From NCBI GenBank assembly GCA_030826915.1, contig JAUUDE010000065.1:1-63512 (forward strand): a stretch of 63,512 bases of DNA. The letters run 5' to 3'. Under the pieces are notes generated by a model. It saw nothing but the letters and a program-made list of their open reading frames with translations. It searched no databases and was not told the DNA's origin. Positions 2,477 through 63,477 of the stretch are shown piece after piece (position 1 is the stretch's first letter; each line of letters opens with the position of its first letter). This DNA comes from Thiomicrospira sp. (lineage in GTDB: Bacteria; Pseudomonadota; Gammaproteobacteria; Thiomicrospirales; Thiomicrospiraceae). The position numbers were made by a program, and so were the translations under genes.

Positions 2477-2847
2477 TTAGCAGGCCTGGTCAAGTTACAT
2501 AACTGAAATTTTAAGATTCCGTTAATTGTTGTGTAATAATCTTATCATTTAAATTAGGCTCAAGACTATTGCTTATTGATTCTTAAGTTTTGATATATCA
2601 ACAACTTTGTTACAAATAGGTTGTAGTTTTGCAGTAATGATTTCCGAATTAATCACCTATTTAAGGTTGTATGAACTGGTTAGCTAAGATACGCAAATTG
2701 CTGATTCTTATGGTAAAATGTTTGGCTATTTTATTAATTAAAAACGATAGGTTTAGTGGTCGGGCTAAAACAGCTAAGATTTTCTAGTCCAAGGTCTGTT
2801 GTTTGAATAAAGCGCTTGCTTTGAGAGGCTTTGTTTAAAGGTGAGTT
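2477..2847. other. Intergenic region upstream of mnmG
   Basis: This A+T-rich stretch carries one CAGGCCTG palindrome at 2481 and must contain the mnmG promoter. No clear -35/-10 pair stands out. Because oriC often lies next to mnmG, I looked for DnaA boxes (TTATNCACA) on both strands and found none, so there is no support for an origin here. Nothing else is recognisable. Confidence 0.5.
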
Positions 2848-4746
2848 ATGAGTTCTGAAGATTCAAAATATGATGTAATTGTTGTTGGTGGCGGTCATGC
2901 AGGGACTGAGGCGGCATTAGCTTCTGCACGAATGGGTCTACAGACTCTATTGCTTACTCATAATATTGATACGCTTGGGCAGATGTCTTGTAATCCAGCC
3001 ATTGGCGGTATTGGTAAAGGTCATTTGGTAAAAGAGATTGATGCCATGGGTGGTGCAATGGGGATTGCCATTGACGAAGCTGGAATTCAATTTCGTATTC
3101 TTAATGCCTCAAAAGGGCCTGCCGTTAGAGCAACCCGTGCTCAGGCTGACCGTGTGCTTTATCGTCAAGCCATTCGTACCCGTTTAGAAAACCAAGAAAA
3201 CCTCACAATATTTCAACAGCCAGTAGAAGACATTATCTTAGAAGGTGAAGCCGTTTGTGGTGTCGTTACCAAAATGGGGTTGAACTTTTACGCTAGTCAA
3301 GTTGTCTTAACGGTTGGTACGTTTTTAGCAGGTCGTATTCATATTGGATTACAAAACTACCAAGGTGGACGAGCTGGAGATGAGCCAGCAAACCGTTTAG
3401 CTGAACGTTTACGAGAAATGAACCTGCCGGTAGGCCGTTTAAAAACAGGTACGCCACCAAGAATTGATGCACGTACGGTGAACTTTGATGCGATGCAAAT
3501 TCAGCATGGCGATAACCCTGTTCCTGTCTTTTCCTATATGGGTAAGGCATCAATGCATCCACAGCAAGTGCCTTGTTACATCACCTACACAAATACAAAA
3601 ACTCATGATGCTATTATGGCCTCGCTGGATAAATCGCCGATGTATTCAGACCAAGGTGAAATAGACAGCGTTGGGCCACGTTACTGCCCATCTATTGAAG
3701 ACAAGGTCATGCGTTTTGCCGATAAAGATAAGCACCAAGTCTTTATTGAGCCTGAAGGTTTAACCACCAATGAACTTTATCCAAATGGGATTTCAACCAG
3801 TTTGCCATTTGAAACGCAGTTACAAATTGTGCACTCAATGGCTGGGCTAGAAAACGCAAAAATCATGCGCCCTGGTTATGCCATAGAATACGATTATTTT
3901 GATCCGCGTGGTTTAAAAGCCACTCTTGAAACACAAGCGATTTCGGGGCTTTATTTTGCAGGGCAAATCAACGGTACTACGGGGTATGAAGAGGCCGCTG
4001 CTCAAGGCTTGCTGGCGGGAATTAATGCCGCACGTCGAGCGCAATCAAAAGATCAATGGTATCCACGTCGTGACGAGGCCTATTTAGGTGTATTGGTTGA
4101 TGATTTAATCACAATGGGTACAACCGAGCCTTACCGCATGTTTACTTCTCGTGCTGAGTACCGTTTGATGTTGCGTGAAGATAATGCGGATCAACGTTTA
4201 ACGCCAGTAGCCAGAGAAATGGGCTTGGTGGATGATGTGCGTTGGGCTGCTTACCAAAACAAGCTAGAAAGTTTAGAGCAAGAAGTGGCTCGTTTAAAAG
4301 ACACGTGGATTTTTCCAGCACATGCCGAAGCCAAAAAAGCCGAAGAGTTGATGAACTTGCCTTTAAGTAAAGAGCAAACGCTATTTGATTTGCTTAAACG
4401 ACCAAACGTGGAATATAAGGCGTTAGCCACATTAGAGGCATTTGGTCATGGTGTTGACGATGCTGCGGTAGTGGATCAAATTGAAATCGAGGCGAAATAC
4501 TCGGGTTATATTGATCGTCAAATACAGCAGATTGATAAAATGAAGCGTTCGGAATCGGTAAAAATTCCTGCAGACTTGGATTTGGATAAAATATCAGGCT
4601 TGTCTAATGAAGTTAAGCAAAAATTACGTGACCATAGCCCAGAAAATCTAGGTATGGCAGGACGTATTCAAGGAATTACACCAGCGGCCATTTCAATTCT
4701 GCTTATTGAAATCAAAAAATTCCGTTCACAAAAGCACTCAGCTTGA
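2848..4746 (+). CDS. mnmG: tRNA uridine-34 carboxymethylaminomethyl synthesis enzyme
   Basis: MnmG (GidA) works with MnmE to place the cmnm5 group on wobble uridine of several tRNAs, using FAD and methylene-tetrahydrofolate. The 632-residue length is typical. The FAD-binding GGGHAGTE is at residues 14-21, followed by the conserved [12 protein letters not shown] and, later, [18 protein letters not shown], which closes the flavin site. The C-terminal helical MnmE- and tRNA-binding part is complete. AAAGGTGAG precedes the ATG. The stop overlaps the likely TTG start of rsmG, as in the classic gidA-gidB pair. Confidence 0.97.
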
Positions 4747-5399
4747 GCAAGCAGATGGAACAATTAAAAACACAATTAATTGCGGGTATAACCTCATTAC
4801 AGCTAGATTTATCTGCTGAACAAGTTGATAAATTAATGGCCTATTTGACCTTACTACAAAAGTGGAATAAGGTGTACAACTTAACGGCTATTCGTGATCC
4901 AGAAGAGATGCTGGTTAAGCACTTGTTAGACAGTCTTGCGGTTGTGCCTTATATTGATGTTAATCGTATCATTGATGTAGGTACTGGCGGTGGCATTCCA
5001 GGGATTCCCTTAGCGATTTGCTTTCCTGAAAAACAGATAGATTTACTCGACAGTAATAGCAAAAAAACCCGTTTTTTGATTCAAGCAAAAGCAGAGCTAG
5101 GTTTAGTGAATACCCAAGTTATTCATCATCGAGTTGAAGAATATAACCCAGAGCCGCTTTATGATGCCGTAATTTCAAGAGCCTTTGCATCCATGCAAGA
5201 TATGCTTGAATGGACACATCATTTGATTCCTGAAGGTAGGTTTTGGCTAGCAATGAAAGCTCAGAAAGAATTTGAAGATTTAACCAAGCTACCAGGCCTG
5301 GTTAAAATAGAAGAAGTGATTGAATTGAATGTTCCAATGCTAAATGCAGAGCGAATGTTAGTCAAAGGTTCTAAACAATCGGAAACAAACCAAAGTTAA
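4743..5399 (+). CDS. rsmG: 16S rRNA (guanine-527-N7) methyltransferase
   Basis: RsmG (GidB) methylates G527 of 16S rRNA with S-adenosylmethionine. The Rossmann SAM-binding motif [15 protein letters not shown] is present and the 218-residue length fits. The start is uncertain: TTG at 4743 overlaps the mnmG stop and gives MSKQMEQ; ATG at 4755 is the alternative and has no better ribosome binding site. A CAGGCCTG copy at 5293 is read as Pro-Gly-Leu. It lies between mnmG and parA in the usual order. Confidence 0.95.
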
Positions 5400-6224: not shown

Positions 6225-7094
6225 GTGGCTAAAAAACGTTCAGGAATGGGAACCCGCGGCATACATGCAATGATTGGCGCAAAGCAAAAATCAGAAAACA
6301 GCAGTTCAGACTTACGTGTTGAAAAATTATTGGTTGATCAGCTACAACCTGGTCAATATCAGCCTCGACAGCAGTTTGAAGAAACAATGCTTCAAGAGCT
6401 TGCAGACTCTATTAAAGTGCAAGGTGTTGTCCAGCCCATTATTGTTCGTCCAGTGGGTACTGATAAATATGAAATTATTGCGGGTGAAAGACGTTGGCGC
6501 GCTTCAAAGTTAGCAGGCCTGGATAAAGTACCGGTTGTCATTCGTCAAGCAGATAGTCAGGCCACCTTAGCTATGGCGCTCATTGAGAACATTCAACGTG
6601 AAGACCTAAACCCAATTGAAACAGCAATTGGTTTAAAACGTCTATTAAAAGAATTCGATTTAACCCAGCAAGCTGTAGCGGACGCTGTAGGGCGTTCTCG
6701 TGCTTCAGTTTCTAACTTATTAAGACTGCTAAAGCTTCCAAAAGATATTCAGAATGCACTGCATGAAGGTCAGCTAAGTATGGGACATGCTAGAGCCATT
6801 ATTAGTCTACCTGAGAAGGTACAAAAAGAGCTAGCTGATAAAGCCATAAGTCGTGGCTGGTCAGTGCGTGATATTGAAGAGGCGGCACAACAGGTATTAG
6901 TTCCTAGCAAAGTGATTAAAGCGGCAAAGAAAAAAGCCATTCCTGGAATAGAGCAGGTTATGCAACATCAGCAAGAATTAGGTGATAAATTGTCCGCCAA
7001 AGTTAAAATCAATCATCTAGAGAGTGGTCGTGGAAAAATCGAAATCAGTTACAAAGATATGTCAGAACTTGAACGTTTATTATCCATGTTGTAG
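6225..7094 (+). CDS. parB: Chromosome partitioning protein ParB (Spo0J)
   Basis: ParB loads at parS, spreads as a CTP-dependent sliding clamp and stimulates ParA. The 289-residue protein starts at GTG (MAKKRSGMG). The CTP-binding boxes GERRWRA (87-93) and ENIQRE (121-126) are intact, followed by the helix-turn-helix and the C-terminal dimerisation domain ending ELERLLSML. CAGGCCTG at 6514 is read as Ala-Gly-Leu. I found no good parS site nearby. Confidence 0.96.
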   Translation: MAKKRSGMGTRGIHAMIGAKQKSENSSSDLRVEKLLVDQLQPGQYQPRQQFEETMLQELADSIKVQGVVQPIIVRPVGTDKYEIIAGERRWRASKLAGLDKVPVVIRQADSQATLAMALIENIQREDLNPIETAIGLKRLLKEFDLTQQAVADAVGRSRASVSNLLRLLKLPKDIQNALHEGQLSMGHARAIISLPEKVQKELADKAISRGWSVRDIEEAAQQVLVPSKVIKAAKKKAIPGIEQVMQHQQELGDKLSAKVKINHLESGRGKIEISYKDMSELERLLSML

Positions 7095-7254
7095 GTGGTA
7101 AAATTGTCTTATTACTTGTCATAAACATATTTAATACAGTGTTTTACGTTAAATAACGTAATAAAAAAAATAAGCATATAATGTGTTTTAAAGTGACTAA
7201 ATAACACTATGTGGTGAGTTGCTCTAATTAGTTGATAAAAAAGTAAAGAAAAAG

Positions 7255-7286
7255 GTTTTATAGTGTAGCTTTTAAGGCTATAAAAC
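7255..7286. promoter_or_regulatory. Inverted repeat upstream of the ATP synthase operon
   Basis: Nine-base arms (7255-7263 and 7278-7286) flank a 14-base spacer in the 265-base gap between parB and atpI. There is no T run on the right arm, so it is more likely an operator or mRNA leader hairpin than a terminator. The gap is very A+T-rich. It should hold the atp promoter, but I cannot name a confident -35/-10 pair. Confidence 0.4.
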
Positions 7287-7359
7287 ATTATCATGTGCGC
7301 CCGTTTAGCTTGAACTTAGTTCAGCTACAAAGTATCATTAACAGAGTTTGCCATAGAAT

Positions 7360-7654
7360 ATGAGCGATAATTTTGAACACAAAAAAGTAAAACAAGCACA
7401 CGCAGAGGCACCAGGCCCAGCAGCGAATTTTTTACTGATGAGTGCAGGCTCGATTTTTACGTCAATGTTAATAGCCGGTTTTATTGTTGGCTATATGTTG
7501 GACCAAATTTTTGATACAACGCCAATTTTCTTTTTAAGTTGTGCGGTTTTAGGGTTTATTGGCGGTATTCAGAAAGTCCATACCTTAAGCAAACGACTTA
7601 ATTATTTGCCTTCTGATGAAAAAAAAGAAAGCAAAGAAGGTAAAGAGACTCAAG

Positions 7655-7671
<17 letters not shown>
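7360..7671 (+). CDS. AtpI-like accessory membrane protein of ATP synthase
   Basis: A 103-residue protein with two hydrophobic helices (about residues 29-49 and 56-71) and a charged Lys/Glu/Asp tail, as in the small AtpI/AtpZ-type proteins that open F1Fo operons. Members are linked to c-ring assembly or Mg2+ supply. It is the first gene of the operon. Its last 17 bases overlap the chosen start of the next gene, so the two are probably translationally coupled. Confidence 0.75.
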
Positions 7672-8841
<1,170 letters not shown>

Positions 8842-8869
8842 GTCAAACCTGAATGCAATTAACAGAATA

Positions 8870-9291
<422 letters not shown>

Positions 9292-9345
9292 TCCCACCGG
9301 ACTGTATCTAGTATTTTATAAATAACGAATGGCGAGGTAACCACT

Positions 9346-9816
9346 GTGAGTATTAACGCAACGCTTCTCATCCAGATGATCGCATTTGTGCTATTAATCT
9401 GGTTTGTGAACAAAGTGCTGTGGGCACCACTGTCTAAGCTAATGGAAGATCGTCAGAAAAAAATTGCTGACGGACTTTCTGCTGCAGAGAAAGGTAAGCA
9501 TGAACTTGAATTAGCGGAACAAAAAGCAAAAGAAGTGCTTAAAGACGCTAAAACACAAGCTCAAAACGTACTAAGTCAAGCTGAAAAGCGTGGTTCTGAA
9601 ATCGTAGAAGATGCGAAAGTAAAAGCCGCGGAAGAAGCAGACCGTATTAAAGCTTCAGCCCAAGCAGAAATAGAGCAAGAAGTTAGTCGTGCGCGTGAAG
9701 GTCTTCGTAAAGAAGTGGCTTCAATCGCAATATCTGGTGCAGAGGAAATTCTTAAGAAAGAAGTTGACGCTGCAACACATAACGACATGCTTGAAACCTT
9801 GGTTAAATCAATCTAA
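9346..9816 (+). CDS. atpF: ATP synthase Fo subunit b
   Basis: Subunit b is the peripheral stalk. The 156-residue protein has one N-terminal membrane helix ([20 protein letters not shown]) followed by a long charged Ala/Glu/Lys coiled coil. It starts at GTG preceded by GAGGTAA. Length and order (after atpE, before atpH) are typical of E. coli-type operons, with a single b gene rather than a b/b' pair. Confidence 0.95.
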
Positions 9817-9825
9817 GGAAACTCT

Positions 9826-10362
9826 ATGGCACAATTAATGACAATTGCACGACCTTACGCAGAAGCGGTATTCGCACTTTCTCAAGAAGCGAATAACTTA
9901 GATGTATGGTCAGAAGAACTAGCGAACCTAGCAACCATCTCTCGAGATGAAGCAATGGCAGCTATGATAAAAAACCCAGCATACTCAGCCGATCAAATCG
10001 TCTCAGTATTCACAGATGTGATGGGTGACAATCTGACTACAGAAGGCAAAGGTCTTCTTACAGCTATGGCTGAAAATAAACGCCTTGGCGCACTGACAGA
10101 TGTTTCTGAAGTTTTTGAAACTTTAAAAGCAGAAGCAGAAAAACGCGTTAGAGCAACGGTTATTTCAGCACGCACAACTACGGTTGAGCAGAAGAAAAAA
10201 TTAAGTGCTGCATTAAATGCTAAGTTTGATGCCGATGTAGAAATTACATATGAAGAAGATGCTTCATTGATCGGCGGAATTAAGATTAAAGTAGGCGATT
10301 GGACTGTAGATGGTTCAGCGGTTACACAACTTAACAAACTTGGCGCAGCAATCGCCCAATAA
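9826..10362 (+). CDS. atpH: ATP synthase F1 subunit delta
   Basis: Delta links the b stalk to the top of the alpha/beta hexamer. The 178-residue protein has the helical N-terminal domain (TIARPYAEAVFALS) and the conserved C-terminal GGIKIKVGDWTVDGS segment. AAGGAA precedes the ATG, nine bases after atpF. Confidence 0.95.
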   Translation: MAQLMTIARPYAEAVFALSQEANNLDVWSEELANLATISRDEAMAAMIKNPAYSADQIVSVFTDVMGDNLTTEGKGLLTAMAENKRLGALTDVSEVFETLKAEAEKRVRATVISARTTTVEQKKKLSAALNAKFDADVEITYEEDASLIGGIKIKVGDWTVDGSAVTQLNKLGAAIAQ

Positions 10363-10377
10363 TGGAGAGGAACAAAC

Positions 10378-11919
10378 ATGCAATTGAATGCCTCTGAAAT
10401 CAGCAACCTAATCAAAGACCGTATTAAAGGTTTTGACGGTGCAGCTGAGTCTGGCAGCGAAGGAACAGTCGTTAGCATCGCTGATGGTATCGCACTTGTT
10501 CACGGTGTCTCAGACGTAATGTATGGTGAGATGGTTCAGTTCGACGAAAACACATTCGGTATGGCTCTAAACTTAGAGTCAGATTCTGTTGGTGTTGTTG
10601 TACTTGGTGAATATGAGCACATCTCAGAAGGTGCTAAAGTAACTTGTACTGGTCGCATCTTAGAAGTACCAGTAGGTCCAGAAATGAACGGTCGCGTAGT
10701 TGACGGTTTAGGTCGTCCAGTAGACGGTAAAGGTCCTATTGAAACTAAAGTAACATCACCTATCGAGCGTATCGCTCCAGGTGTAATCGATCGTCAATCT
10801 GTTGACGAGCCAATGATGACTGGTATTAAGTCTATCGATTCAATGATTCCTGTTGGCCGTGGTCAGCGTGAGTTAATCATCGGTGACCGTCAGACTGGTA
10901 AGACTGCAATCGCTATCGATGCAATCATCTCTCAGAAAGACACTGGTGTTAAATGTATTTACGTAGCAATGGGGCAAAAAGCTTCTACAGTTGCTAACGT
11001 AGCACGTAAATTAGAAGAATACGGCGCAATGGATAACACAGTTATCGTTTCTGCTAACGCTTCTGACCCTGCTGCTCTGCAGTACCTAGCTGCTTTTGCT
11101 GGTTGTGCTATGGGTGAATACTACCGTGACCGTGGTGAAGATGCGTTAATCATCTATGATGATTTAACTAAGCAAGCCCAGTCATACCGTCAGATTTCAT
11201 TACTACTTCGTCGTCCACCAGGTCGTGAAGCATTCCCTGGTGACATCTTCTATCTACATTCTCGTTTACTTGAGCGTGCTGCTCGTGTATCTGCTGACTA
11301 TGTTGAGAAGTTCACAAACGGTGAAGTAAAAGGTAAGACTGGTTCTTTAACTGCTCTACCAATTATTGAAACACAAGCTGGTGACGTATCTGCATTCGTA
11401 CCAACTAACGTAATCTCGATTACTGATGGTCAGATTTTCCTAGAGACAGGATTGTTCTCTCAGGGTATCCGTCCTGCGGTTAACGCTGGTTTATCTGTAT
11501 CACGTGTTGGTGGTGCTGCACAAACTAAAGCAATCAAGAAGTTAGGTGGTGGTATCCGTCTTGACTTAGCACAATACCGTGAATTAGCGGCGTTTGCTCA
11601 GTTTGCATCGGATCTTGATGCTGCAACTAAAGCACAGTTAGAGCGCGGTAAGCGTGTTACTGAGCTAATGAAGCAGAAGCAATACTCTCCATTAACTATC
11701 GCAGAAATGGCTATCTCTTTGTACGCTGCTAATGAAGGCTACTTAGATGATGTAGAAGTAGATAAAGTATTAGACTTTGAAGCTGCTCTACATGCTCACT
11801 TGAACTCTGCAAATGCTGAATTAGCTGCCCAAATCAATGAGAAGGGTGACTGGAATGGTGACATCGTTGATGCTGTTAAAGCATGCGTAGAATCATTCAA
11901 GGCTAACGGCGTTTACTAA
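10378..11919 (+). CDS. atpA: ATP synthase F1 subunit alpha
   Basis: Non-catalytic nucleotide-binding subunit of the F1 head. The 513 residues match E. coli AtpA in length. Walker A is GDRQTGKT, and the arginine-finger region [15 protein letters not shown] is present. Codon use is strongly biased, as expected of a highly expressed gene, and no CAGGCCTG copies occur in it. Confidence 0.98.
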
Positions 11920-11933
11920 TTAAGGAGTAGGCC

Positions 11934-14208
<2,275 letters not shown>

Positions 14209-14214
14209 TTTGTT

Positions 14215-14649
14215 ATGGCAGTCTCAATGCAAGTAGATATTGTAAGTGCAGAAGGTGAACTATTTTCTGGTAAAGCAGAGATGCTTTTTGCACAGGCTGC
14301 CGACGGTGAGGTTGGTATTATGCCTCACCACACCCAGTTTCTAAGCTCTTTGAAGCCTGGAACAGTACGTGTTGTAAGCGGCGATGAAGAAGATCACTTC
14401 TACATCAGCGGTGGTATCATTGAAATCCAGCCAAGTGTTGTAACTGTTCTTGCAGATACAGCAATTCGTGCTGCTGATATTGATGAAGCTGAAGCTAATG
14501 CTGCTAAACAGCGTGCTGAAGAAGCAATGGACTCAGCTAAAACTGAAACTGATATCGCAAGAGCTCAGGTTGAGTTGGCTGAAGCCGTAGCTCAAATTCA
14601 AGCGGTTACCAAACTTCGTGATCGTTTGCATAAAACTGGGTTGGCTTAA
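14215..14649 (+). CDS. atpC: ATP synthase F1 subunit epsilon
   Basis: Epsilon couples the gamma shaft to the c ring and can inhibit ATP hydrolysis. The 144-residue protein has the N-terminal beta-sandwich (MQVDIVSAEGELFSG, GEVGIMPHHTQFLS) and a complete C-terminal helical pair. It is six bases after atpD and ends the operon. Confidence 0.95.
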   Translation: MAVSMQVDIVSAEGELFSGKAEMLFAQAADGEVGIMPHHTQFLSSLKPGTVRVVSGDEEDHFYISGGIIEIQPSVVTVLADTAIRAADIDEAEANAAKQRAEEAMDSAKTETDIARAQVELAEAVAQIQAVTKLRDRLHKTGLA

Positions 14650-14665
14650 CTGTTACCCTAAAGAG

Positions 14666-14693
14666 AAAAGCGGCTATAGCCGCTTTTTTTTCG
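14666..14693 (+). terminator. Rho-independent terminator of the atp operon
   Basis: A perfect 22-base palindrome (AAAAGCGGCTA and its complement) is followed by a run of T, 17 bases after the atpC stop. Confidence 0.92.
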
Positions 14694-14817
14694 CCTATCG
14701 TTTTGTTTAGTTGCTTACTATCAATCTCTTCGTTGGAAACGAGTCGTGTAGTAAACTACACTCACTTATTCCGCCTCGACCTTGATTGGTAATCAATCTA
14801 AACAAACTCGATAGGCG
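14692..14817. repeat. Long intergenic inverted repeat (hairpin element 2)
   Basis: Arms at 14692-14726 and 14784-14817 are reverse complements with few mismatches and would form a hairpin of about 35 pairs. Its tip is a smaller perfect stem at 14746-14761 (GTGTAGT-AA-ACTACAC). It starts in the T run of the atp terminator and ends 80 bases before glmU. There is no reading frame inside. It has the architecture, not the sequence, of the elements at 2206 and 28365. Confidence 0.7.
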
Positions 14818-14897
14818 TATTTCATTTATGTATAGTTTCTATATTAATAGATACATTATGTTTCTATTTGTATATGAATTGTTAACTAGGAATTTAT

Positions 14898-16262
14898 ATG
14901 GCTCTTAAAGTTGTAATTCTTGCTGCGGGTAAAGGCACTCGTATGCGTTCTAAGTTACCTAAGGTTTTGCAGCCTTTGGCTGATAAAGCATTATTACAGC
15001 ATGTTATTGATACCGCACAACAGCTCCATTGTGATGAGATAATTACAGTTATTGGCCATGGTGCAGAATCGGTTCAATCTTCGGTATCGGGCAATAACCT
15101 TGTTTTTGCAATGCAAGAACAGCAATTAGGCACAGGCCACGCAGTCGTAATGGCAGATGAATTTTATAATGCGGATGATACCGTATTAATTCTTTACGGT
15201 GATGTTCCGCTAACAACTGAGAGTACCTTAACAGACTTACTTTCTCTGGTAGATGATACCAACCCTTTAGCACTGCTTACCATTACGCTTGAAGAGTCCA
15301 CAGGCTATGGTCGTATTGTTCGTGATCAACACAGTTCCGTGCAAGCAATTGTAGAACAAAAAGATGCCAACCCAGAACAACTGGCTATTAAAGAAGTCAA
15401 CACAGGTATCATGGCAGTTAAGGGCGCTCAGCTTAAAAAATGGTTGTCTTCCTTAGACAACAGTAATGCACAGGGCGAATACTACCTAACCGATATTATC
15501 GCTATGGCAGTCAACGATGGTTTCAAAGTACAAACCACCCAACCCGCCAATGAACTAGAAGTATTAGGCGTAAACGATAAACGCCAACTTCAAGGTCTAG
15601 AACGTGCCTATCAAAGATTACTCGCCGATGAATTGATGGTAAAAGGGGTAACCTTAATTGATGCCAATCGAATCGATATACGTGGAACAGTTGAAACAGC
15701 CAAAGATGTACAGATTGATGCCAATGTCATCCTAGCAGGCCTGGTACGTTTAGGCGAAAACGTCGAGATTGGCGCAAACTGTATTCTTAAAAATGTCACT
15801 ATTGCTGACAATACGGTTATTCACCCTTTTAGTCATTTAGAAGACTGCATTGTTGGTGAAGATTGTATTATTGGCCCTTATGCTCGTTTGCGTCCAGGCA
15901 CAGAATTAGCCAATAATGCCAAAATTGGTAACTTTGTTGAAACCAAAAAAGCCAAGATTGGCGAAGGTTCAAAAATTAACCACCTAAGCTATGTGGGCGA
16001 TACCGATATGGGGCAAGAGGTTAATATTGGCGCTGGTACCATCACCTGTAATTACGATGGTGTAAACAAGCACAAAACCATTATTGGAGACCGTGTGTTT
16101 GTAGGCTCAGACACTCAATTGGTTGCACCAGTACAAATTGGTGATGATGCCACCATAGGCGCAGGTTCAACCATCACCAAAGATGCACCACAAGCTCAAT
16201 TAACCTTGTCTCGTTCTAAACAGCTAACCATTGTAAGTTGGCAAAAACCCACCAAAAAATAG
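14898..16262 (+). CDS. glmU: Bifunctional GlcNAc-1-P uridylyltransferase / GlcN-1-P acetyltransferase
   Basis: GlmU makes UDP-GlcNAc for peptidoglycan and lipid A. The N-terminal pyrophosphorylase half has LAAGKGTRM (residues 8-16). The C-terminal half is a left-handed beta helix of hexapeptide repeats with the acetyl-CoA-binding GNFVETKKAKIG and the catalytic INHLSYVGD segment. The 454 residues fit the family. CAGGCCTG at 15736 is read as Ala-Gly-Leu. It follows the atp operon, as in many gammaproteobacteria. Confidence 0.97.
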   Translation: MALKVVILAAGKGTRMRSKLPKVLQPLADKALLQHVIDTAQQLHCDEIITVIGHGAESVQSSVSGNNLVFAMQEQQLGTGHAVVMADEFYNADDTVLILYGDVPLTTESTLTDLLSLVDDTNPLALLTITLEESTGYGRIVRDQHSSVQAIVEQKDANPEQLAIKEVNTGIMAVKGAQLKKWLSSLDNSNAQGEYYLTDIIAMAVNDGFKVQTTQPANELEVLGVNDKRQLQGLERAYQRLLADELMVKGVTLIDANRIDIRGTVETAKDVQIDANVILAGLVRLGENVEIGANCILKNVTIADNTVIHPFSHLEDCIVGEDCIIGPYARLRPGTELANNAKIGNFVETKKAKIGEGSKINHLSYVGDTDMGQEVNIGAGTITCNYDGVNKHKTIIGDRVFVGSDTQLVAPVQIGDDATIGAGSTITKDAPQAQLTLSRSKQLTIVSWQKPTKK

Positions 16263-16275: not shown

Positions 16276-16530
16276 ATGAAATATTGCGATATAGCAGGCA
16301 ACCTTTGCGAACCCTTTAAAAAAGCCATGAACGACCAGGCCTGGCAGATTACACATCAAGATGTTGGGCAAACCGAACTATTGGCCTATGGTTATGTCAT
16401 TGCATGGGAAAAAGACGGCAATAAAGTACTTTTGCAATACTCTGATCGCCAAGGCCAAGTACAAGCGAATTTAGAAATCTCGCCTGCGGTGTATGATGAG
16501 ATTATGACAACCATCGCTGAGCTCACTTAG
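16276..16530 (+). CDS. Small hypothetical protein
   Basis: An 84-residue soluble protein, 13 bases after glmU and 57 bases before ubiA, in the same direction. It has no signal peptide, membrane segment or motif I recognise. A CAGGCCTG copy at 16336 is read as Gln-Ala-Trp. Its codon use resembles its neighbours, so I think it is real. Confidence 0.6.
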   Translation: MKYCDIAGNLCEPFKKAMNDQAWQITHQDVGQTELLAYGYVIAWEKDGNKVLLQYSDRQGQVQANLEISPAVYDEIMTTIAELT

Positions 16531-17439: not shown

Positions 17440-17673
17440 ACCTATCTTACAAGCCAGTTAAAAGCTACCAGGCCTGCTAACTTCATAGCGAGTTTGGTCA
17501 TCCCCTGTTAAAGGATTTAATTCAATAACACGCTTCTATCTAATAAGAGTATTTACTTATTATTGTGTTTTGCACTATGATGGGTGCATGTTATTTATTT
17601 CGCTACTTCACTCGTCTTTACATTCGTTAACGCAAATGTACATTGCGGCCACCGCACACGTTAAATTGTGCCT

Positions 17674-18555: not shown

Positions 18556-18604
18556 TCTTTTGAACCAACCAGGCCTGGTTAGTTTGGTTTTTGGCAGTAA
18601 TAAA

Positions 18605-27522: not shown

Positions 27523-27544
27523 TCAAAAATCCAAGTATGCGTTT

Positions 27545-28312: not shown

Positions 28313-28364
28313 AGTGAAAGGCTTTTTGTTAGATGAGTGAATTGTAAATTGAACTAGATATAAC

Positions 28365-28471: not shown

Positions 28472-30784
<2,313 letters not shown>

Positions 30785-44942: not shown

Positions 44943-45062
44943 ATGATTTTAATAACGAATTTTTTATATGAAATTAAAGTGGTTCGGTTTTCATCATTAA
45001 GTTGACCAGGCCTGGTTCAATGGGTAGGATTGGCTTAAACAAATAAGCAAAAGATACCTCTC

Positions 45063-47486: not shown

Positions 47487-47632
47487 GTGTTTTCCTTTCA
47501 ATAAAACGTTTACGCAATCAGGAAACCGATAAGGAAGCGTTAAAAATGAAAGGATACCATATTCTTAGCAGGCCTGATATGTTTGAAGATGTGCACTTGA
47601 TAGAATGAAGCTTACGTTACCAGCAAATGAAT

Positions 47633-51615: not shown

Positions 51616-52443
51616 GTGAAAAAACTTTTGTTTACAGACTTGGACGGCTCCTTATTGGATCACCATGATTATGATTATTCCGCTGCGTTGCCAGCAATCG
51701 AGCTGTTAAACAATAAACAGGTTCCATGGATATTAACAACCAGTAAAACCGCAGCTGAAGTTATTGAATTAAAGGCTGAACTGCAAAATACACACCCCTT
51801 TATTGTTGAAAATGGAGCGGGTATCTTTTGGCCATCGGGTTCGATGGATACACAATTTTTGCCAAGCAACGTTGCTGTGCAAACGTGGGGAGAAGACTTT
51901 GAATTTATGAGTCTGAACGCCGTTTTGCTACCAGAAATGCTGCAACTGGCCCAGTCCTATAAAAAACAACTTAACCTCTCTTTTATCGGTTTTTCAGAAA
52001 TGAGTAACCAACAAGTAGCAGACTGTACTGGTCTGACATTAGAGAAGGCGGCTAAAGCCAAGCAGCGTGCTTTTTCTGAACCATTGCTTTGGCAAGATTC
52101 GGAAGACAAATTAATGCAGTTTAGCAATGCCATGGCTCAACATGGATTGCAACTCATTAAAGGGGGGCGTTTTGTGCATTTAATGGGCATGAGTAATAAA
52201 GGACAAGCATTAAAAGTCTTGTCTCATTATTACCAGCAGGCCTGGCAAGAAACGGTTGAAACCATGGCGTTAGGGGATGGTAATAACGATATTCCATTAT
52301 TAGAAGCCAGCGATTATCCGGTAATTATTCGTTCACCAGTTAATCCTGCACCAGTTGTGAAACATAGCAAAGTATTTATTACTAAAGAGAATGGCCCAAA
52401 AGGGTGGAATCAAGCCGTATTAGATTGGCTTGCAGTAGATTAG
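51616..52443 (+). CDS. Glucosyl-3-phosphoglycerate phosphatase (MpgP-like HAD)
   Basis: A 275-residue HAD-family phosphatase of the mannosyl/glucosyl-3-phosphoglycerate phosphatase group. FTDLDGSLLD carries the catalytic Asp pair, LTTSKT is motif II, and ALGDGNNDIPLLE binds Mg2+. It starts at GTG. Next to a GpgS-type synthase it should remove the phosphate to give glucosylglycerate. Mannosyl specificity is less likely given the synthase and phosphorylase. CAGGCCTG at 52237 is read as Gln-Ala-Trp. Confidence 0.82.
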   Translation: MKKLLFTDLDGSLLDHHDYDYSAALPAIELLNNKQVPWILTTSKTAAEVIELKAELQNTHPFIVENGAGIFWPSGSMDTQFLPSNVAVQTWGEDFEFMSLNAVLLPEMLQLAQSYKKQLNLSFIGFSEMSNQQVADCTGLTLEKAAKAKQRAFSEPLLWQDSEDKLMQFSNAMAQHGLQLIKGGRFVHLMGMSNKGQALKVLSHYYQQAWQETVETMALGDGNNDIPLLEASDYPVIIRSPVNPAPVVKHSKVFITKENGPKGWNQAVLDWLAVD

Positions 52444-53731: not shown

Positions 53732-55492
53732 ATGCAAACCAGTCCAAATACAAACAATCAAGCTTATTCAGCGCTTATTGAGCGTATCACACCTTTGGTG
53801 CAAGCGTTGTATCCGGATGAAAATGCAATAGAATTAGCACACAAGTTTGTAGAAAAAACTGGGATAAAAAAAGATGACTGTGATGGCTTTACAGCGTATC
53901 AATCGCATTGGGATGAGCAAGATATTATGCTTATTACCTATGGCGATTCAATTAAAAATAGTCGTGAAAAACCCCTTAAAACCTTAAAAAACACCTTAGA
54001 CACCTATCTAAAAGAGAGTGTTTCCATGGTGCATATTTTACCTTACTATCCCTATACCTCCGACGGTGGTTTTGCTGTATCTGATTATGAAAATATCAAC
54101 CCTGATTTAGGTAGTTGGGATGATGTGACTGATATTAGCCAAAGCTATAAAATCATGGCAGACTTGGTGATTAATCATTGCTCAAGTGAACATCCCTGGT
54201 TTAAAGCCTTTGAAGCTGGAGATGAGACTTATGAAAACTATTTCATTCAAGCAAGTCCAGAGACCGATTTATCTGAAGTTGTGCGGCCAAGAACGACACC
54301 TTTATTGCGTTTAACTCGCACTCCCAAAGGGGATAAATACGTTTGGTGTACATTCAGTCATGATCAAATAGATTTGAATTTCTCTAATCCTGACGTTTTT
54401 TTGGAAGTCATGCGCTTAATTTCACTTTATATCGATAAAGGAGCGAGTATCTTCCGCTTAGATGCCATTGGTTTTTTATGGAAAATTATTGGTACCAGTT
54501 GCATTCATTTGCCTGAAACACATCAGGCAATTCAGCTGATGCGTGCCTTAATTGAGTGTCGTTTGCCAAGTGCTATTATTATCACTGAAACCAATGTGCC
54601 AAAAAAGGAAAACTTGACCTACTTTGGTAATGGTAATGAAGCGCACATGGTGTATAACTTTTCACTGCCTCCTTTGTTGATTAATGCGCTATTAACGGGT
54701 TCCGCTAAACACCTTAAAACGTGGTTAATGTCTATGCCGCCGGCGCAGATGGGCACGACCTTTTTAAACTTTATTGCAAGCCATGACGGTATTGGTGTTC
54801 GTCCTGCCGAAGGAATTCTTGATCCAGAAGAACTACAAAATATGATTCATGCATTACAGTCATTTGGAGCGAGGGTTTCATGGCGAACAGGCCTGAATGG
54901 TGAAAAGAATCCATACGAAATAAATATCGCTTTGATTGATGCCTTTAAAGGCACCTGCGAAGGAGAGGATGAGTATCAAGTAGCTAGAATGTTGTGTGCG
55001 CATGCAATCGCGATTGCATTAGAAGGCGTGCCAGCTATCTATGTGCACTCGTTCTTCGCCACTGAAAATGATTGTGAAAAGTTACAACAAACTGACCACA
55101 ATCGAGATATCAATAGACATCAATGGCAAGAACAAGAGCTTAAACCGCTACTGGAAGATTCTTCAACCATGAATAATCAAGTATTAACTGGCCTTAATCG
55201 GTTAATAGGTTTGCGTAAAAAACACGCCGCCTTTCATCCAAATGCCACCCAGTTTACATTGCATTTAGATGATGCTTTATTTGGATTTTGGCGTCAAAGT
55301 TTAATGCGTGATCAAAGTATCTTTGTGGTGAATAATGTCACAAATACGCCACAAACTTTGAGTTTGGCACAGCTAAACTTAATTGATATGGATCAGTGGA
55401 AAGAGATTATTTCTGACGAAGTGATTGGGGACTTACTAGGTGAAATGACTCTAGCACCATACCAAACTGTTTGGATTACCAATCGTTGGTAA
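53732..55492 (+). CDS. Glucosylglycerate phosphorylase-like GH13_18 enzyme
   Basis: A 586-residue sucrose-phosphorylase-family protein. The catalytic nucleophile is Asp244 (FRLDAIGFLWK), the acid/base Glu286 (ITETNVP) and the transition-state stabiliser Asp352 (ASHDGIG). Sucrose phosphorylases are about 490-500 residues, and this longer form matches the glucosylglycerate phosphorylase subgroup. It would split glucosylglycerate with phosphate into glucose-1-phosphate and glycerate, closing a cycle with the two upstream genes. CAGGCCTG at 54888 is read as Thr-Gly-Leu. Confidence 0.82.
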   Translation: MQTSPNTNNQAYSALIERITPLVQALYPDENAIELAHKFVEKTGIKKDDCDGFTAYQSHWDEQDIMLITYGDSIKNSREKPLKTLKNTLDTYLKESVSMVHILPYYPYTSDGGFAVSDYENINPDLGSWDDVTDISQSYKIMADLVINHCSSEHPWFKAFEAGDETYENYFIQASPETDLSEVVRPRTTPLLRLTRTPKGDKYVWCTFSHDQIDLNFSNPDVFLEVMRLISLYIDKGASIFRLDAIGFLWKIIGTSCIHLPETHQAIQLMRALIECRLPSAIIITETNVPKKENLTYFGNGNEAHMVYNFSLPPLLINALLTGSAKHLKTWLMSMPPAQMGTTFLNFIASHDGIGVRPAEGILDPEELQNMIHALQSFGARVSWRTGLNGEKNPYEINIALIDAFKGTCEGEDEYQVARMLCAHAIAIALEGVPAIYVHSFFATENDCEKLQQTDHNRDINRHQWQEQELKPLLEDSSTMNNQVLTGLNRLIGLRKKHAAFHPNATQFTLHLDDALFGFWRQSLMRDQSIFVVNNVTNTPQTLSLAQLNLIDMDQWKEIISDEVIGDLLGEMTLAPYQTVWITNRW

Positions 55493-55541: not shown

Positions 55542-56999
55542 ATGTCAGCTGCAGATATTGGTTTGATTGGGCTTGCTGTAATGGGGCAAAACTTGGTTTT
55601 GAATATGGCCGAACACGGTTTTCATGTGTGTGTCTATAACCGTTCAGAGCAAAAAACGCATGAGTTTATCAAAAACCGAACTCAAGGCTTTCCAATTAGT
55701 GCGGCTTATTCACTGCAAGAGTTGGTCGATTCCTTAGCCGCTCCACGTAAGATTATGTTAATGGTCAAAGCCGGTGAAGTGGTTGATTCATTTATAGAAC
55801 AACTTGTACCGCTTTTGGATGAAGGCGATATCATTATTGATGGGGGTAACTCCCTCTTTATTGACTCTAATCGTAGAACCAAAGAACTCGCTGAAAAAGG
55901 CATTCTCTTTATTGGTACGGGTGTTTCAGGTGGTGAAGAGGGGGCGCGTTTTGGACCTTCAATTATGCCAGGTGGTAATCACCAGGCCTGGTCAAGTGTT
56001 AAGCCTATTTTTCAAGCGATTGCCGCTAAATCAGACGGTGAAGCCTGTTGTGATTGGGTGGGTGATGATGGTGCTGGTCATTACGTGAAGATGGTTCACA
56101 ACGGTATTGAATACGGCGATATGCAGTTGATTAGCGAGGCTTATCAGCTATTGCGAGAAGGCTTAGGAATGAGTGCAGATGAATGCCAAAAAGTATTTGC
56201 CGCATGGAATGAGGGCGTTTTAGACTCCTATTTAATTGAAATTACCGCAGAGATTCTGACCTTTAAAGACAGCGATGGAGAACCGTTAGTTGACAAAATA
56301 TTGGATGCCGCCGGCCAAAAAGGGACAGGTAAATGGACTGGGATTAGCTCACTAGAGTTAGGTATTCCAGTGACATTGATTACCGAATCGGTTTATGCAC
56401 GTTGCTTGTCAGCTCTAAAATCAGAACGCCAGAAAGCCGCCAAAATTTATCCACGTACCGTTGCCGCTAAAACGTATAGTGAAGAGGAAAAAGAAGGCAT
56501 TATTTCATCTCTTCATGATGCTTTATACGCTTCAAAAATCGTCTCTTATGCACAAGGTTATATGCTTATGGCTGAGGCTGCAAAATCGTATGGTTGGGAC
56601 TTAAACTATGGCGGCATCGCTTTAATGTGGCGTGGTGGTTGTATTATTCGCAGTCGTTTCTTGGGAGAAATTAAGAAGGCCTATGACCAGCAACCTGATC
56701 TGAATAATTTACTGCAAGCAAGCTTCTTTGAAAACGCCATTAAAAATGCAGAGCAACAATGGCGAAAGGCTGTTGTGTTTGGTATTGAACAGCAAATTCC
56801 AACACCTACCTTAAGCTCGGCTTTGGCGTTTTTTGATGGTTATCGTAGTGCAGTTGTCCCAGCTAATTTACTACAAGCTCAGCGAGATTACTTTGGGGCC
56901 CATACCTACGAGCGAGTCGATGCTCCACGTGGAGAGTTTTTCCATACCGACTGGATTTCATCAGGTGGAAACGTCAGTTCCACTACCTATGAGGTTTAA
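55542..56999 (+). CDS. gnd: 6-phosphogluconate dehydrogenase, decarboxylating
   Basis: Oxidises 6-phosphogluconate to ribulose-5-phosphate with NADP+. The 485 residues contain GLAVMGQNLVLNMA (coenzyme), GVSGGEEGARFGPSIMPGG and HNGIEYGDMQLI (catalytic Lys and substrate site), and GTGKWTGISSLELG. It begins the oxidative pentose phosphate part of the operon, 49 bases after the phosphorylase and two before zwf. CAGGCCTG at 55983 is read as Gln-Ala-Trp. Confidence 0.97.
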   Translation: MSAADIGLIGLAVMGQNLVLNMAEHGFHVCVYNRSEQKTHEFIKNRTQGFPISAAYSLQELVDSLAAPRKIMLMVKAGEVVDSFIEQLVPLLDEGDIIIDGGNSLFIDSNRRTKELAEKGILFIGTGVSGGEEGARFGPSIMPGGNHQAWSSVKPIFQAIAAKSDGEACCDWVGDDGAGHYVKMVHNGIEYGDMQLISEAYQLLREGLGMSADECQKVFAAWNEGVLDSYLIEITAEILTFKDSDGEPLVDKILDAAGQKGTGKWTGISSLELGIPVTLITESVYARCLSALKSERQKAAKIYPRTVAAKTYSEEEKEGIISSLHDALYASKIVSYAQGYMLMAEAAKSYGWDLNYGGIALMWRGGCIIRSRFLGEIKKAYDQQPDLNNLLQASFFENAIKNAEQQWRKAVVFGIEQQIPTPTLSSALAFFDGYRSAVVPANLLQAQRDYFGAHTYERVDAPRGEFFHTDWISSGGNVSSTTYEV

Positions 57000-57001: not shown

Positions 57002-58486
57002 ATGGTTGAAGCCAATACATATGTTGTCTTTGGTGCAACGGGAAATCTATCTTTAACTAAACTGATGCCGGCGTTTTACCACCTTGAAGCTGTTGGACGT
57101 TTGCCTGAAGGCATGCGAATTGTCGCTATTGGACGTCGCGAATGGCAACAAGAAGATTGGTTGGCAGAAGTAAAAAAATACATAGAACCGATTGCTCGAG
57201 GGGGCATTAATCACTCAACTTTTGATGCTTTTGCAGAGCGTATGGACTATGTGCAAATGGATATTTTACAACCAGAGGCTTATTCCAAACTCGCAGAAAC
57301 GCTAGCTTTGCCTAAGTTTTCTGCAAATATCGCCTTCTATCTCTCGCTAGGGCCTGATATGTTTGGCAAGGTGACGCATGAGCTTAAAGCACATGGTCTA
57401 CTGGAAGAGTATGCAGGCTGGAGACGTGTTGTTTTAGAAAAACCGTTCGGTTATGACGCAGAAAGTGCCAAAGCATTACAAAATAAAATCAGTAAAGCTT
57501 TGTCTGAAGAACAGACCTATCGTATTGACCACTATCTTGGTAAAGGAATGGTGCAAAACGTTATGGTTTTCCGTTTTGCGAATGCACTTATGGAACCCTT
57601 ATGGAGTCGTAATACGATTGATCATATTCAAATTACCCACGCAGAAGATAAAAGTGTCGGCACGCGAGCAGGCTACTACGATCAAAGTGGTGCTTTACGC
57701 GATATGATTCAGAGCCACTTACTGCAATTGTTAGCCTTGGTTGCGATGGAGCCGCCAGCCTCTATGGAAGCGGAGTCGTTGCGAGATGAAAAAGTAAAAT
57801 TACTCAAATCGATTCGTCCAATCAAAAAGAATCAGGTTTCCAGCAGTGCCTATCGAGCACAATACAGAGAAGGTATTATTCATGATAATCAAGTTCCCAG
57901 TTATTTGAATGAACCGGGCGTGGCGGAAGACTCGGTCACCGAAACCTATGCCGCGCTTAAGTTGTATATTGATAACTGGCGGTGGGAAGGCGTGCCATTT
58001 TATATTCAGACAGGTAAAAACATGAAGCAGTCAAAAACGTTGGTTTCTATCTGCTTTAAACATCCGCCAAAACAGTTCTTTAGAGATTCTCAAGTCAAAA
58101 AGATGGAGCCAAATTGGATTGTTTTTGGCATCCAGCCAAATGAATCCATTAAAGTGGAGATGATTGCAAAACAACCAGGCCTGGAGATTAAGACTGAACA
58201 AATTAGCCTTGATGCGGCGATGAAATACGATGAAAACACTAAAATTGATGCCTATGAAGAGCTATTGCTTGATGTTATTAAAGGTGATCGTTCCTTGTTT
58301 TTGCGTTTTGATGAAGTCAAAGCCGCTTGGGATGTGGTTGATCCTGTACTTAACGCATGGGCGAGTCAAACAGACTATATTGATACCTATTGTTCAGGAA
58401 GTTGGGGTCCAGAAGGGTCGCAAAAGCTGTTTGAACGCAGTGATCAAAAATGGCGAACTTACATAAACCCGCATTGTGCTGAATAA
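57002..58486 (+). CDS. zwf: Glucose-6-phosphate 1-dehydrogenase
   Basis: First enzyme of the oxidative pentose phosphate pathway. The 494-residue protein has FGATGNLSLTKLMPA (GxxGxLxxxK coenzyme site; the second residue differs from the usual GASGDLA), EKPFGYD and the active-site RIDHYLGK. It starts two bases after gnd. CAGGCCTG at 58176 is read as Pro-Gly-Leu. Confidence 0.97.
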   Translation: MVEANTYVVFGATGNLSLTKLMPAFYHLEAVGRLPEGMRIVAIGRREWQQEDWLAEVKKYIEPIARGGINHSTFDAFAERMDYVQMDILQPEAYSKLAETLALPKFSANIAFYLSLGPDMFGKVTHELKAHGLLEEYAGWRRVVLEKPFGYDAESAKALQNKISKALSEEQTYRIDHYLGKGMVQNVMVFRFANALMEPLWSRNTIDHIQITHAEDKSVGTRAGYYDQSGALRDMIQSHLLQLLALVAMEPPASMEAESLRDEKVKLLKSIRPIKKNQVSSSAYRAQYREGIIHDNQVPSYLNEPGVAEDSVTETYAALKLYIDNWRWEGVPFYIQTGKNMKQSKTLVSICFKHPPKQFFRDSQVKKMEPNWIVFGIQPNESIKVEMIAKQPGLEIKTEQISLDAAMKYDENTKIDAYEELLLDVIKGDRSLFLRFDEVKAAWDVVDPVLNAWASQTDYIDTYCSGSWGPEGSQKLFERSDQKWRTYINPHCAE

Positions 58487-59238: not shown

Positions 59239-59309
59239 ACTTTGTAAAGGTCGCTAGAAAGAGTTAGCAGGCCTGGTCACAAATGTAACTTCTTAAATTT
59301 TAGACATAA

Positions 59310-59347: not shown

Positions 59348-59431
<84 letters not shown>

Positions 59432-60909: not shown

Positions 60910-60938
60910 TGAATTATCCTTTAGTGTAAAGGTCTCTA

Positions 60939-61898: not shown

Positions 61899-62130
61899 AG
61901 TTTTTCCTGTACTTTATATTATAAATTCATTATATCCGTATAAACAAATACAGTCTAGATTTTTAATCTATGTCCGTTTTTAAAGTTATGTTTTTTTGAG
62001 CCACTCTAACTCTTAGGGTTTGTCTTATTCATATACTGAAAATAACTTATCGTTTACAATGTTTAGCAGAGTATTCTTCCCAATTCAGAGTCAACTATTT
62101 ATCTAAATTCAACCTTATGGAATCATCTTG

Positions 62131-63477
62131 ATGGAATATCACAAATCTCGTTTAGAACGAATGATTGTAGCAGGCCTGCTAGCTTTAATGATTTGGGCGC
62201 CTTTGCCTTTGGGCAGTAATCGAGATTGGTCTGAAGCGGTTTTGATTTTATTTGTGAGTATTTTGGCGTTTTTATGGGGTATTCACTTATTTAGAAGCTC
62301 GGAAACAAATCAGAAATTAAACCGAGCAGGCCTGGTTATGCTTTGTTTGCTTGTATTTACATAGGCCTGGGTGGCAATTCAATGGTTATTTGGTTTCAGT
62401 GCAAATCCGGCCGCCACTTTTAAATATCTTATTTTGGGTGTCAGTTATACCTTAATCTTCCTTATGTTTTTAAGTTTGTTTAATACTCGTAAACGCTTAA
62501 CGTTGCTGTTAAGTGTGTTTCTGGTCAGTGGCGCATTTCAAGCATTTTGGGGGGCGTCTATGGTTTTGTCTGGGGTGGAATGGTTATTTGGCGTACCTAA
62601 AGAACATTATCTTGGTAAGGCAACGGGCACATTTGTAAACCGTAACCATCTAGCAGGTTATTTAGAAATGACGATTGGTTTGGGGATAGGCTTGATGCTA
62701 GCCTTAAGAGATGGCCAAGCATTTCGTTGGCGCAATATCATTGAATTGTTGTTAGGACCAAAAACAAAAATTCGTCTAGCCATTGTCATTATGGTGATTG
62801 GCTTGGTTATGACGCAATCTAGAATGGGTAATGCCGGTTTCTTTAGTAGTTTACTGATTGTAGGTAGTATTTTTGTACTCATCACAAAAGAGCATCGCCT
62901 TAGAAACAGTTTGCTTCTTGTGAGTTTTATTATTATTGATATGATTGTAATCAGCCAGTATTTTGGTTTAGAACGCTTAAAAGATTGTTTAGTGAGTACT
63001 GAGGTAAGCGTCTCTCAAGAAGGCGGTAAATTGGTTTTTGATATTAACGATTTACGAGGTTTAGCGTTTACCAATTCCATTCCACTTGCGCAAGAAAAAG
63101 CACTAATAGGGCATGGCGCTGGTAGTTACGAAGTGGTATTTATGGGGCATGCAGGTCCTAACTTTGGTGGTCATTTTGACCATGCACATAATGACTACAT
63201 TCAGTTTTGGGTAGAGTTTGGCTTGATTGGTGCCTTACCACTGCTTATCTTTGCCGTTATTGCTTTATATCAAGCCTTTAGAGCTTTAAAGCATAAGCAA
63301 TCGGTTTATCGCACAGGCATTGGTTTTGGTGCAGCTATGGCCATAATAGCCATTATGATTCACTCTTCATCCGACTTTAACCTACAAATACCTGCCAATG
63401 CCATGACATTTGTGGTGGTTTGTGCCATTGCGGTATTGGCAAATACGCATAGTCATCACAGAAGAATAAATCGTTAA
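62131..63477 (+). pseudogene. O-antigen ligase-like (Wzy_C) membrane protein, interrupted by an amber codon
   Basis: Two adjacent frames (78 codons, then 368) are in the same phase, separated only by TAG at 62362. Together they give a protein of about 448 residues with ten or more hydrophobic helices. It has FVNRNHLAGYLEM, HGAGSYEVVF and DHAHNDYIQFWVEFG, the periplasmic motif of O-antigen ligases and polymerases. The TAG lies in TAGGCCTGG, one base from CAGGCCTGG, which would read Gln-Ala-Trp. It is either a recent null mutation, a suppressed amber codon or a sequence error. No clear ribosome binding site precedes the ATG. Confidence 0.8.

Follow-up and report, generated by a model that had tools for sequence, protein, structure and literature searches.

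A highly iterated palindromic octamer in Thiomicrospirales is probably one dialect of a DNA uptake sequence system

The palindromic octamer CAGGCCTG is present in 28 exact copies in a 63,512-base stretch of DNA from Thiomicrospira sp. (assembly GCA_030826915.1, contig JAUUDE010000065.1, positions 1 to 63,512), referred to here as the window. Together with its flanking context, CAGGCCTG is probably the most common dialect in a system of DNA uptake sequences in this group of bacteria, since its copy number, its flanks, its dialects with a common core, its patchy loss, its use in terminators and its enrichment in non-coding DNA match those of uptake sequences. The uptake-like behaviour of the word is better supported than its membership in that class, and we infer natural competence, motif-dependent uptake, a receptor and a symmetric reading of the palindrome. 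Self-recognising uptake by such words has been described for Pasteurellaceae and Neisseriaceae, and uptake words are named in these two families in a 2026 terminator scan of thousands of genomes (PMC13020248).

Over-representation of the octamer in the window and its genome

In 100 dinucleotide-preserving shuffles of the window, CAGGCCTG is found 0.49 times on average (maximum of 5), close to the 0.4 or so that an earlier reading of this DNA, made without database searches (the sequence-only reading), had expected by chance. That reading reported 27 copies within 2481-62334; the repeat itself is confirmed, while the number becomes 28 with a copy at 411-418, outside that range. When the 8-mers of both strands are ranked, CAGGCCTG comes first with 56 occurrences and the runner-up, AGGCCTGG, which overlaps it, has 33; the next-ranked palindromic 8-mer is present in 8 copies vs. 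28. The hexamer AGGCCT occurs 40 times, and 28 of these form the core of CAGGCCTG. The density in the window is 4.4 per 10 kb vs. an outside level of 0.46 per 10 kb (59 copies in 1.28 Mb) at 75 other loci with ParB relatives. The copies show no even spacing (coefficient of variation of 1.04), and a copy-free stretch from 6,522 to 15,735 contains what we take to be the ATP-synthase genes. According to the lists of open reading frames (ORFs), in which those below 150 amino acids were sought near only part of the sites, 19 copies are coding and 9 are non-coding. The sequence-only reading had given 20 and 7.

The window's own assembly (G000; 1,786,265 bases in 99 contigs, 86.4% complete) contains 655 copies of CAGGCCTG vs. 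1 copy of the reversed control word. An ordinary frequency beyond the window, which would have spoken against the earlier interpretation, is therefore not what is observed, and the description of a genome-wide highly iterated palindrome that is neither a protein motif nor an insertion element is right.

The conserved context of CAGGCCTG is wider than the octamer. Among 358 half-sites from six genomes, the core is bordered by C (69%) or G (22%) and next by A (81%); further out, T is favoured at -4 (54%) and A at positions -6 to -8 (42-46%), in agreement with the tendency towards ASCAGGCCTGST noticed before. The full context, (A-rich)..T..A(C/G)CAGGCCTG(C/G)T..A..(T-rich), fades about 8 bases beyond the core, with nothing clear farther away. 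The two reading phases seen earlier in the window, (Ala/Pro/Thr)-Gly-Leu and Gln-Ala-Trp, recur in samples of six genomes, where 79 of 133 coding copies are read as (Pro/Ala/Thr)-Gly-Leu and 47 as Gln-Ala-(Trp/Cys). In the sample used for the analysis of one-mismatch words (see below), perfect copies number 182 vs. 3.8 expected; in six motif-less genomes, the perfect words number 4 vs. 4.3 expected.

Distribution over the order

Among 62 genomes of the order, 32 carry more than 200 copies of CAGGCCTG (range of 236 to 1,173; at least 24-fold over the reversed control), and the remaining 30 carry 0 to 74. The bearers comprise 15/32 genomes of the window's genus, 9/9 of genus g5, 7/11 of g6 and 1/1 of g3, and there is no genome with >200 copies in g2 (0/4), g4 (0/1) or g28 (0/4). 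In a sample of 21 genomes from beyond the order, those with more than 100 copies reach at most 108 vs. 15 for the reversed control (G049). The closest match to the window's ParB, at 79%, is from a gammaproteobacterial metagenome-assembled genome. The nearest named matches belong to Thiomicrorhabdus, at 70-75% identity, and Hydrogenovibrio, at 65%, which makes Thiomicrorhabdus the probable genus.

On a 40-genome tree built from seven comEC-region proteins (3,113 columns, midpoint root, G004 left out), genomes with CAGGCCTG are found in g1, g3, g5 and g6, and the bearers group in clades. At least 5 losses or changes are required if CAGGCCTG was ancestral to these four genera, namely: in G063/G064/G068; in G013, G023, G024, G012, G010, G026 and G019 together; in G016 and G028; in G003; and in G020. 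Because the tree is rooted by midpoint and its deepest nodes are weak (support of 0.06-0.10), such an ancestry is likely but not proven. The word is probably old and has been lost or replaced several times. The motif-bearing bacteria are probably sulfur oxidisers, and cultured species exist in the probable genera of the group.

Replacement words

Alternate words were sought in samples of genomes without CAGGCCTG, and two replacements turned up. The first is in G023, a genome with merely 12 copies of CAGGCCTG: its 80-kb sample contains 36 copies of CCGGCCGG where 1.0 is expected, including 27 in the form ACCGGCCGGT, and its whole genome contains CCGGCCGGT 1,117 and 1,107 times on the two strands, largely at the same sites, vs. 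5 and 8 for the controls. Elsewhere among the 62 genomes, CCGGCCGGT has a strand maximum of 42 (G073, control of 50); in some of them, such as G012 (23 and 36 vs. controls of 5 and 6), its counts are a few-fold over control. The second replacement was detected in a 60-kb sample of G020 as 33 copies of AGGCCGG, 13 of which are CTCAACAGGCCGG, mostly downstream of an A-run. The corresponding directional 13-mer, CAACAGGCCGGGT, is present in 335 copies in G020 and 181 in G004, balanced between strands in both (167/168 and 90/91). Beyond these two genomes it is found in G058 (7 copies), G005 (2), G017 (1) and G065 (1) and is at 0 in 56/62, and its reversed control occurs once across all 62 genomes. 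The copies in G058, which belongs to genus g2, include one terminator-like pair (L292, L293) and reflect either DNA transfer or misplaced contigs. Polar signals such as Chi and KOPS (FtsK-orienting polar sequences) differ from the words described here, since the palindrome has no orientation and the G020 word is balanced by strand, as counted without reference to the origin.

All three words, CAGGCCTG, CCGGCCGGT and CAACAGGCCGGGT, contain a central GGCC. CAGGCCTG and CCGGCCGG are palindromic, and the G020/G004 word is the sole non-palindrome of the three. A-rich flanking positions are seen in all three dialects but not in every genome: the A-rich arms are strongest in G033 and G023 and almost absent in G035, and an A-tract precedes the G020 word. 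It should be noted that the replacement words are known from one genome in the case of CCGGCCGGT and from two in the case of CAACAGGCCGGGT. G020 is sister to G005, which has 859 copies of CAGGCCTG, with a support of 0.94 on the tree. Of eight aligned CAGGCCTG rows compared with G020, just two (one position in two species) are one base away, which suggests that the new words mostly originated at fresh sites. Raised words were also found in G024 (CATTAATG, 9 vs. 1.4 expected; CACTGGCA, 33 vs. 6.2), and GTTGCAAC is mildly raised in G016 (8 vs. 1.3) and G029 (8 vs. 1.6). The sample of G004 was too short for a word search.

A symmetric site with A-rich arms would also suit a dimeric DNA-binding protein, and the words could then be bound by an abundant protein of chromosome organisation, repair or replication, with a specificity that has drifted from one species to another, as the distribution of copies along the window would allow. 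We consider this rather unlikely, given that the asymmetric replacement word requires a changed binding mode and that absence from several clades fits a dispensable function. We know of no such protein.

Placement of the copies and hairpin formation

With genes called by a simple longest-ORF rule, the density of CAGGCCTG is higher in non-coding than in coding DNA by a factor of 4.1 in a set of 182 sites and 3.1 in an overlapping set of 360; the copies inside genes number 133/182 and 284/360, respectively. In orthologous genes of the comEC region, 37 positions are shared between species vs. 7.2 expected from background 8-mer identity, as summed over 14 motif-bearing species pairs that have genomes in common. 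The pair G000-G009 has zero shared positions, and in three pairs with a CAGGCCTG-less partner 0/9 positions are shared.

These observations bear on the possibility that a selfish or mutational process, such as a transposed short element or biased gene conversion, spreads the word with no receptor being involved. Patchy presence is what such a process would produce; nevertheless, it appears very improbable to us, as most copies are within genes and in two main reading phases, the conserved context stops about 8 bases outside the core, and positions are conserved between species. Extragenic repeats of the REP (repetitive extragenic palindrome) or MITE (miniature inverted-repeat transposable element) type likewise differ in being larger units outside genes.

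Arms with at least 5 extra complementary bases are present at 15/76 non-coding vs. 6/284 coding copies in stretches of 24 genomes, with copies near the ends of the stretches dropped. Among the non-coding copies of the window, extended arms are found at 27553-27560 alone, where CAGGCCTG is the centre of a 26-base perfect palindrome with a predicted hairpin that has GGCC in its loop. Of five window sites folded, this is the only one with a z-score below -3 (-3.4 on the plus strand and -4.5 on the minus strand); the sites at 17469 and 62171 fold weakly (z of -2.2 and -1.7), and those at 18570 and 59268 fold no better than shuffles (-0.1 and 0.5). Among the 64 sites of the G020 word listed on contig C1, there are four inverted pairs with a spacing below 60 bases and one common arrangement, vs. 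a mean of 0.37 close pairs (maximum of 4) in 5,000 random placements. The sites listed for G004 include four equally close pairs, of which two are in a terminator arrangement. Seven pairs (four in G020, two in G004 and one in G058) fold as hairpins with energies between -31.8 and -46.7 kcal/mol and have T-runs downstream, and the eighth place examined, in G058, is a lone copy with no pair. Judged by fold only, the close inverted pairs of CAACAGGCCGGGT look like intrinsic terminators, and a single copy of the palindrome can form a terminator-like hairpin as the CAACAGGCCGGGT pairs do. That transcription termination or another RNA-level signal is the primary function of the words is extremely unlikely in our view: the extended arms, the 27553 copy and the inverted pairs in G020 and G004 would agree with it, whereas the large share of copies within genes and the weak or shuffle-like folds at the other four window sites do not.

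A separate observation concerns spacing in G061, where no two of the 64 CAGGCCTG sites listed at C1:3877-362519 are closer than 1,129 bases, and 0 of 5,000 draws are as spread out; elsewhere (L219), there is one 960-base gap between CAGGCCTG sites.

Methyltransferases and the comparison with HIP1

The sequence-only reading regarded HIP1 (highly iterated palindrome) of cyanobacteria as the closest parallel. By analogy, a solitary methyltransferase would act on GGCC or AGGCCT, and methyl-directed repair or a related process would create and keep the palindrome. HIP1 and the alternate HIPs are, like CAGGCCTG, over-represented GC-rich palindromic octamers, and in some genomes a different palindrome takes their place (PMC4390886); one of the alternate words here (CCGGCCGG/CCGGCCGGT) is also palindromic, and C5 methyltransferases are found above the cut-off in 7 of 18 motif-bearing genomes searched. 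However, a methyltransferase for part of the HIP was predicted in each HIP-bearing cyanobacterial genome studied (PMC4390886), while seven genomes with 409 to 904 CAGGCCTG each (G000, G014, G017, G021, G025, G027 and G033) have no match at E 0.001 to PF00145, PF01555 or PF02086, in a search that did not extend to other methyltransferase families (e.g. Type I, IIG). The completeness of G000 is 86% and that of the other six is 99-100%. G023, the bearer of CCGGCCGGT, has no match to these three families either; G036 has a PF01555 match only, under the cut-off; and G020 has a D12 match that adjoins phage-like genes.

Since these seven motif-rich genomes have no such match, C5, N4/N6 beta-class and D12 methyltransferases were rejected as the cause, and the HIP1 or methylation reading fits poorly. 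The missing matches speak strongly, though not absolutely, against a HIP-like origin, which is also at odds with a replacement word in G020 that is asymmetric and directional, with an A-tract and inverted pairs. We regard this origin as improbable, and the earlier parallel with HIP1 is less well supported than it had seemed. The listing of an uptake signal among the possible roles, on the other hand, was apt.

Competence genes and the search for a receptor

ComEC is found in 56 of the 62 genomes, including G000. Among the word bearers, G004 (92% complete) and G006 (82%) have no ComEC match, and both are fragmented; two of the four non-bearers with no match, G031 and G073, are 99% complete. The comEC frame of G020 (L209 4789-11126, C1) has 592 residues before its stop, vs. 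865 residues in G005, and its neighbours are phage tail-like genes and the D12 methyltransferase gene. Because the short frame adjoins phage-like genes and its counterpart in G005 has 865 residues, a prophage seems to have split comEC in G020, in which case the G020 words would be remnants of a formerly competent state. The interval C1:46,444 to 89,403, which takes in the phage side, has no listed site of the G020 word, but two other gaps on C1 are equally long.

N_methyl pilins and clusters were inspected in 13 genomes, and no receptor candidate stood out. The type IV cluster, which presumably adjoins miaB, was rejected as word-linked since it occurs with and without the motif and its pilins are mostly acidic. 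A type II-like pilin set, identified by pilin matches, is present in 8/8 motif-bearing vs. 2/5 motif-less genomes. As read in ten genomes, this set, presumably GspF-G-H-I-J-like and of type II secretion appearance, includes a few basic pilins with isoelectric points (pI) of 8.1-8.6 (G021, G023 and G061), and it was rejected as a source of the receptor because the cases are too few and not independent.

An uptake system and its resemblance to known ones

In a DNA uptake system, the motif on free DNA would be recognised at the cell surface by a receptor that belongs to the competence (type IV pilus) machinery, giving the DNA of relatives an advantage in uptake. Motif-bearing fragments would then enter the genome by recombination more frequently than others, and copies would pile up where coding constraint permits and persist at the same places. 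If the specificity of the receptor shifts, the old word would decay and a new one would spread.

The uptake signal sequences (USS; Hin and Apl types) of Pasteurellaceae resemble the words described here in their many genome-wide copies, AT-rich flanks, subclade dialects and inverted-pair terminators (PMC1626085, PMC1852404). They differ in that their cores, AAGTGCGGT or ACAAGCGGT, are non-palindromic, and in that uptake has been measured there whereas CAGGCCTG is known from sequence alone. A receptor candidate for USS in Pasteurellaceae is ComN/PpdA (PMC12616744). The DNA uptake sequences (DUS) of Neisseriaceae also have a short core common to all dialects, CTG there and GGCC in the three words here; their dialects track the tree, and some members have none (PMC3630211). 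In contrast to CAGGCCTG, DUS are non-palindromic and have a known receptor, ComP, a relative of which was not found over the cut-off here with PF16732. Both USS and DUS serve in terminators, in Haemophilus and Neisseria (PMC1852404, PMC13020248).

Several observations weigh against an uptake system. The first is palindromy, a clear mismatch with the known uptake sequences, which are non-palindromic as far as described in PMC1939737; the sequence-only reading was right about these in calling uptake sequences usually non-palindromic, yet here the palindrome of one lineage has given way to a non-palindromic, uptake-signal-like word, and the mismatch is itself lifted in the G020/G004 word. The halo of mutated words is also thin, with 131 one-mismatch words vs. 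103 expected (1.3 times), and the surplus falls on the two outermost bases, with hardly any within GGCC. There are 0 copies of CAGGCCTG in 65 kb around parB at the loci of the five nearest named relatives, no comparable word in samples of G003, G010, G012, G013, G019, G026, G028 and G031 or in small samples of G001, G011, G022, G032 and G034, and no terminator arrangement in two of the four close pairs of G004 (C83 and C123). ComEC does not track the motif, being about equally common with the word (33/35, dialect genomes counted as bearers) and without it (23/27). ComP_DUS (PF16732) has no match over the cut-off in the 62 genomes; FimT/GspH (PF12019) has matches (E 0.001) in only 3 of the 62, G010, G019 and G026, all of which are motif-less; and the pilins of the type IV cluster are mostly strongly acidic, with a pI of about 4-5 (up to 7.0 in G035), in bearers and others alike.

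On balance, we favour an uptake system, and this may well be a third group with its own uptake language, whose common word is palindromic and readable from either strand, and in which the G020 lineage, branching from within the CAGGCCTG species, exchanged a symmetric word for an asymmetric one. A search of the literature, which did not extend to subscription journals and preprints, gave no report of such a motif in this group among the matches listed, and none pairing Thiomicrospira with an uptake sequence. Papers listed as containing the string CAGGCCTG itself deal with unrelated topics, and PMC5217627 and PMC2346458 offered nothing further on this group. An AGGCCT restriction-modification system is known from a different host, Alcanivorax (PMC12128166). 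If the uptake reading is true, the several dialects and the repeated absence in one genus would allow the study of how uptake words start, change and die; the receptor should be findable by comparing close relatives; and it would be able to change between symmetric and asymmetric reading inside one genus. The palindromic form also tests models in which the receptor reads in one direction.

Individual copies and neighbouring features

The copy of CAGGCCTG at 411-418 is inside ORF 161-559 and that at 2481-2488 is non-coding, followed by copies inside rsmG (5293-5300; ORF 4743-5399, family match) and inside ORF 6225-7094 (6514-6521), which we take to be parB-like. Beyond the long copy-free stretch, the copies are inside glmU (15736-15743; ORF 14898-16262, family match), a small ORF at 16276-16530 (16336-16343) and, twice, ubiA (16629-16636 and 17291-17298; ORF 16588-17439, family match). 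The copy at 17469-17476 is non-coding, 30 bp past ubiA, and the one at 18570-18577 is non-coding and flanked by convergent ORFs. Two copies (20217-20224 and 20536-20543) are inside a chorismate-lyase-like ORF on the minus strand (20208-20813) and one (26515-26522) inside a Kdo-transferase-like ORF on the same strand (26305-27522), both ORFs with matches below the family cut-off. After the hairpin-forming non-coding copy described above, a copy at 32852-32859 is inside ORF 32278-33402, presumably aroB-like, and those at 33696-33703 and 34217-34224 are inside ORF 33440-34333, which has no NCBIfam match.

Further along, copies with family matches for their ORFs are inside purT (42320-42327; minus-strand ORF 42005-43195), an MTA/SAH nucleosidase gene (46129-46136; minus-strand ORF 45781-46473) and a mannosyl-3-phosphoglycerate-phosphatase-family gene (52237-52244; ORF 51616-52443). 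A sucrose-phosphorylase-like ORF (53732-55492), with a match below the family cut-off, includes the copy at 54888-54895. The copies at 55983-55990 and 58176-58183 are inside ORFs 55542-56999 and 57002-58486, which we assume to be gnd-like and zwf-like, respectively. The remaining copies, at 45007-45014, 47569-47576, 59268-59275 (close to a tRNA-Leu gene), 62171-62178 and 62327-62334, are non-coding.

At 26305-30775 there is a row of genes of which the first (Kdo-transferase/WaaA-like), the one that was scanned, has family matches. We take the row to be WaaA-, KdsB-, iron-alcohol-dehydrogenase- and DegT aminotransferase-like, resembling a Kdo8N (kdnA/kdnB) set; a second gene, presumably KdsB-like, adjoins comEC in relatives. 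ORF 37393-39528 is presumably OvoA-like (ovothiol synthesis) and includes a C-terminal part that is presumably a methyltransferase.

Other repeats were met in relatives. Runs of C/G represented by CCCCCCCC, perhaps phase-variable tracts, number 50 in 44 kb of G016 (L177-L179) and 42 in 60 kb of G029 (L183-L185). A repeat with CAGCTAAGAAA and CCGCCAAGGCAGC is present in about 98 copies in the 80 kb sampled from G019 (L115-L118), and dispersed repeats are seen as AACCTAAGTCTGAACC-like words in G009 (L131-L134) and as GTCATTGCGA in G014 (L135-L138).

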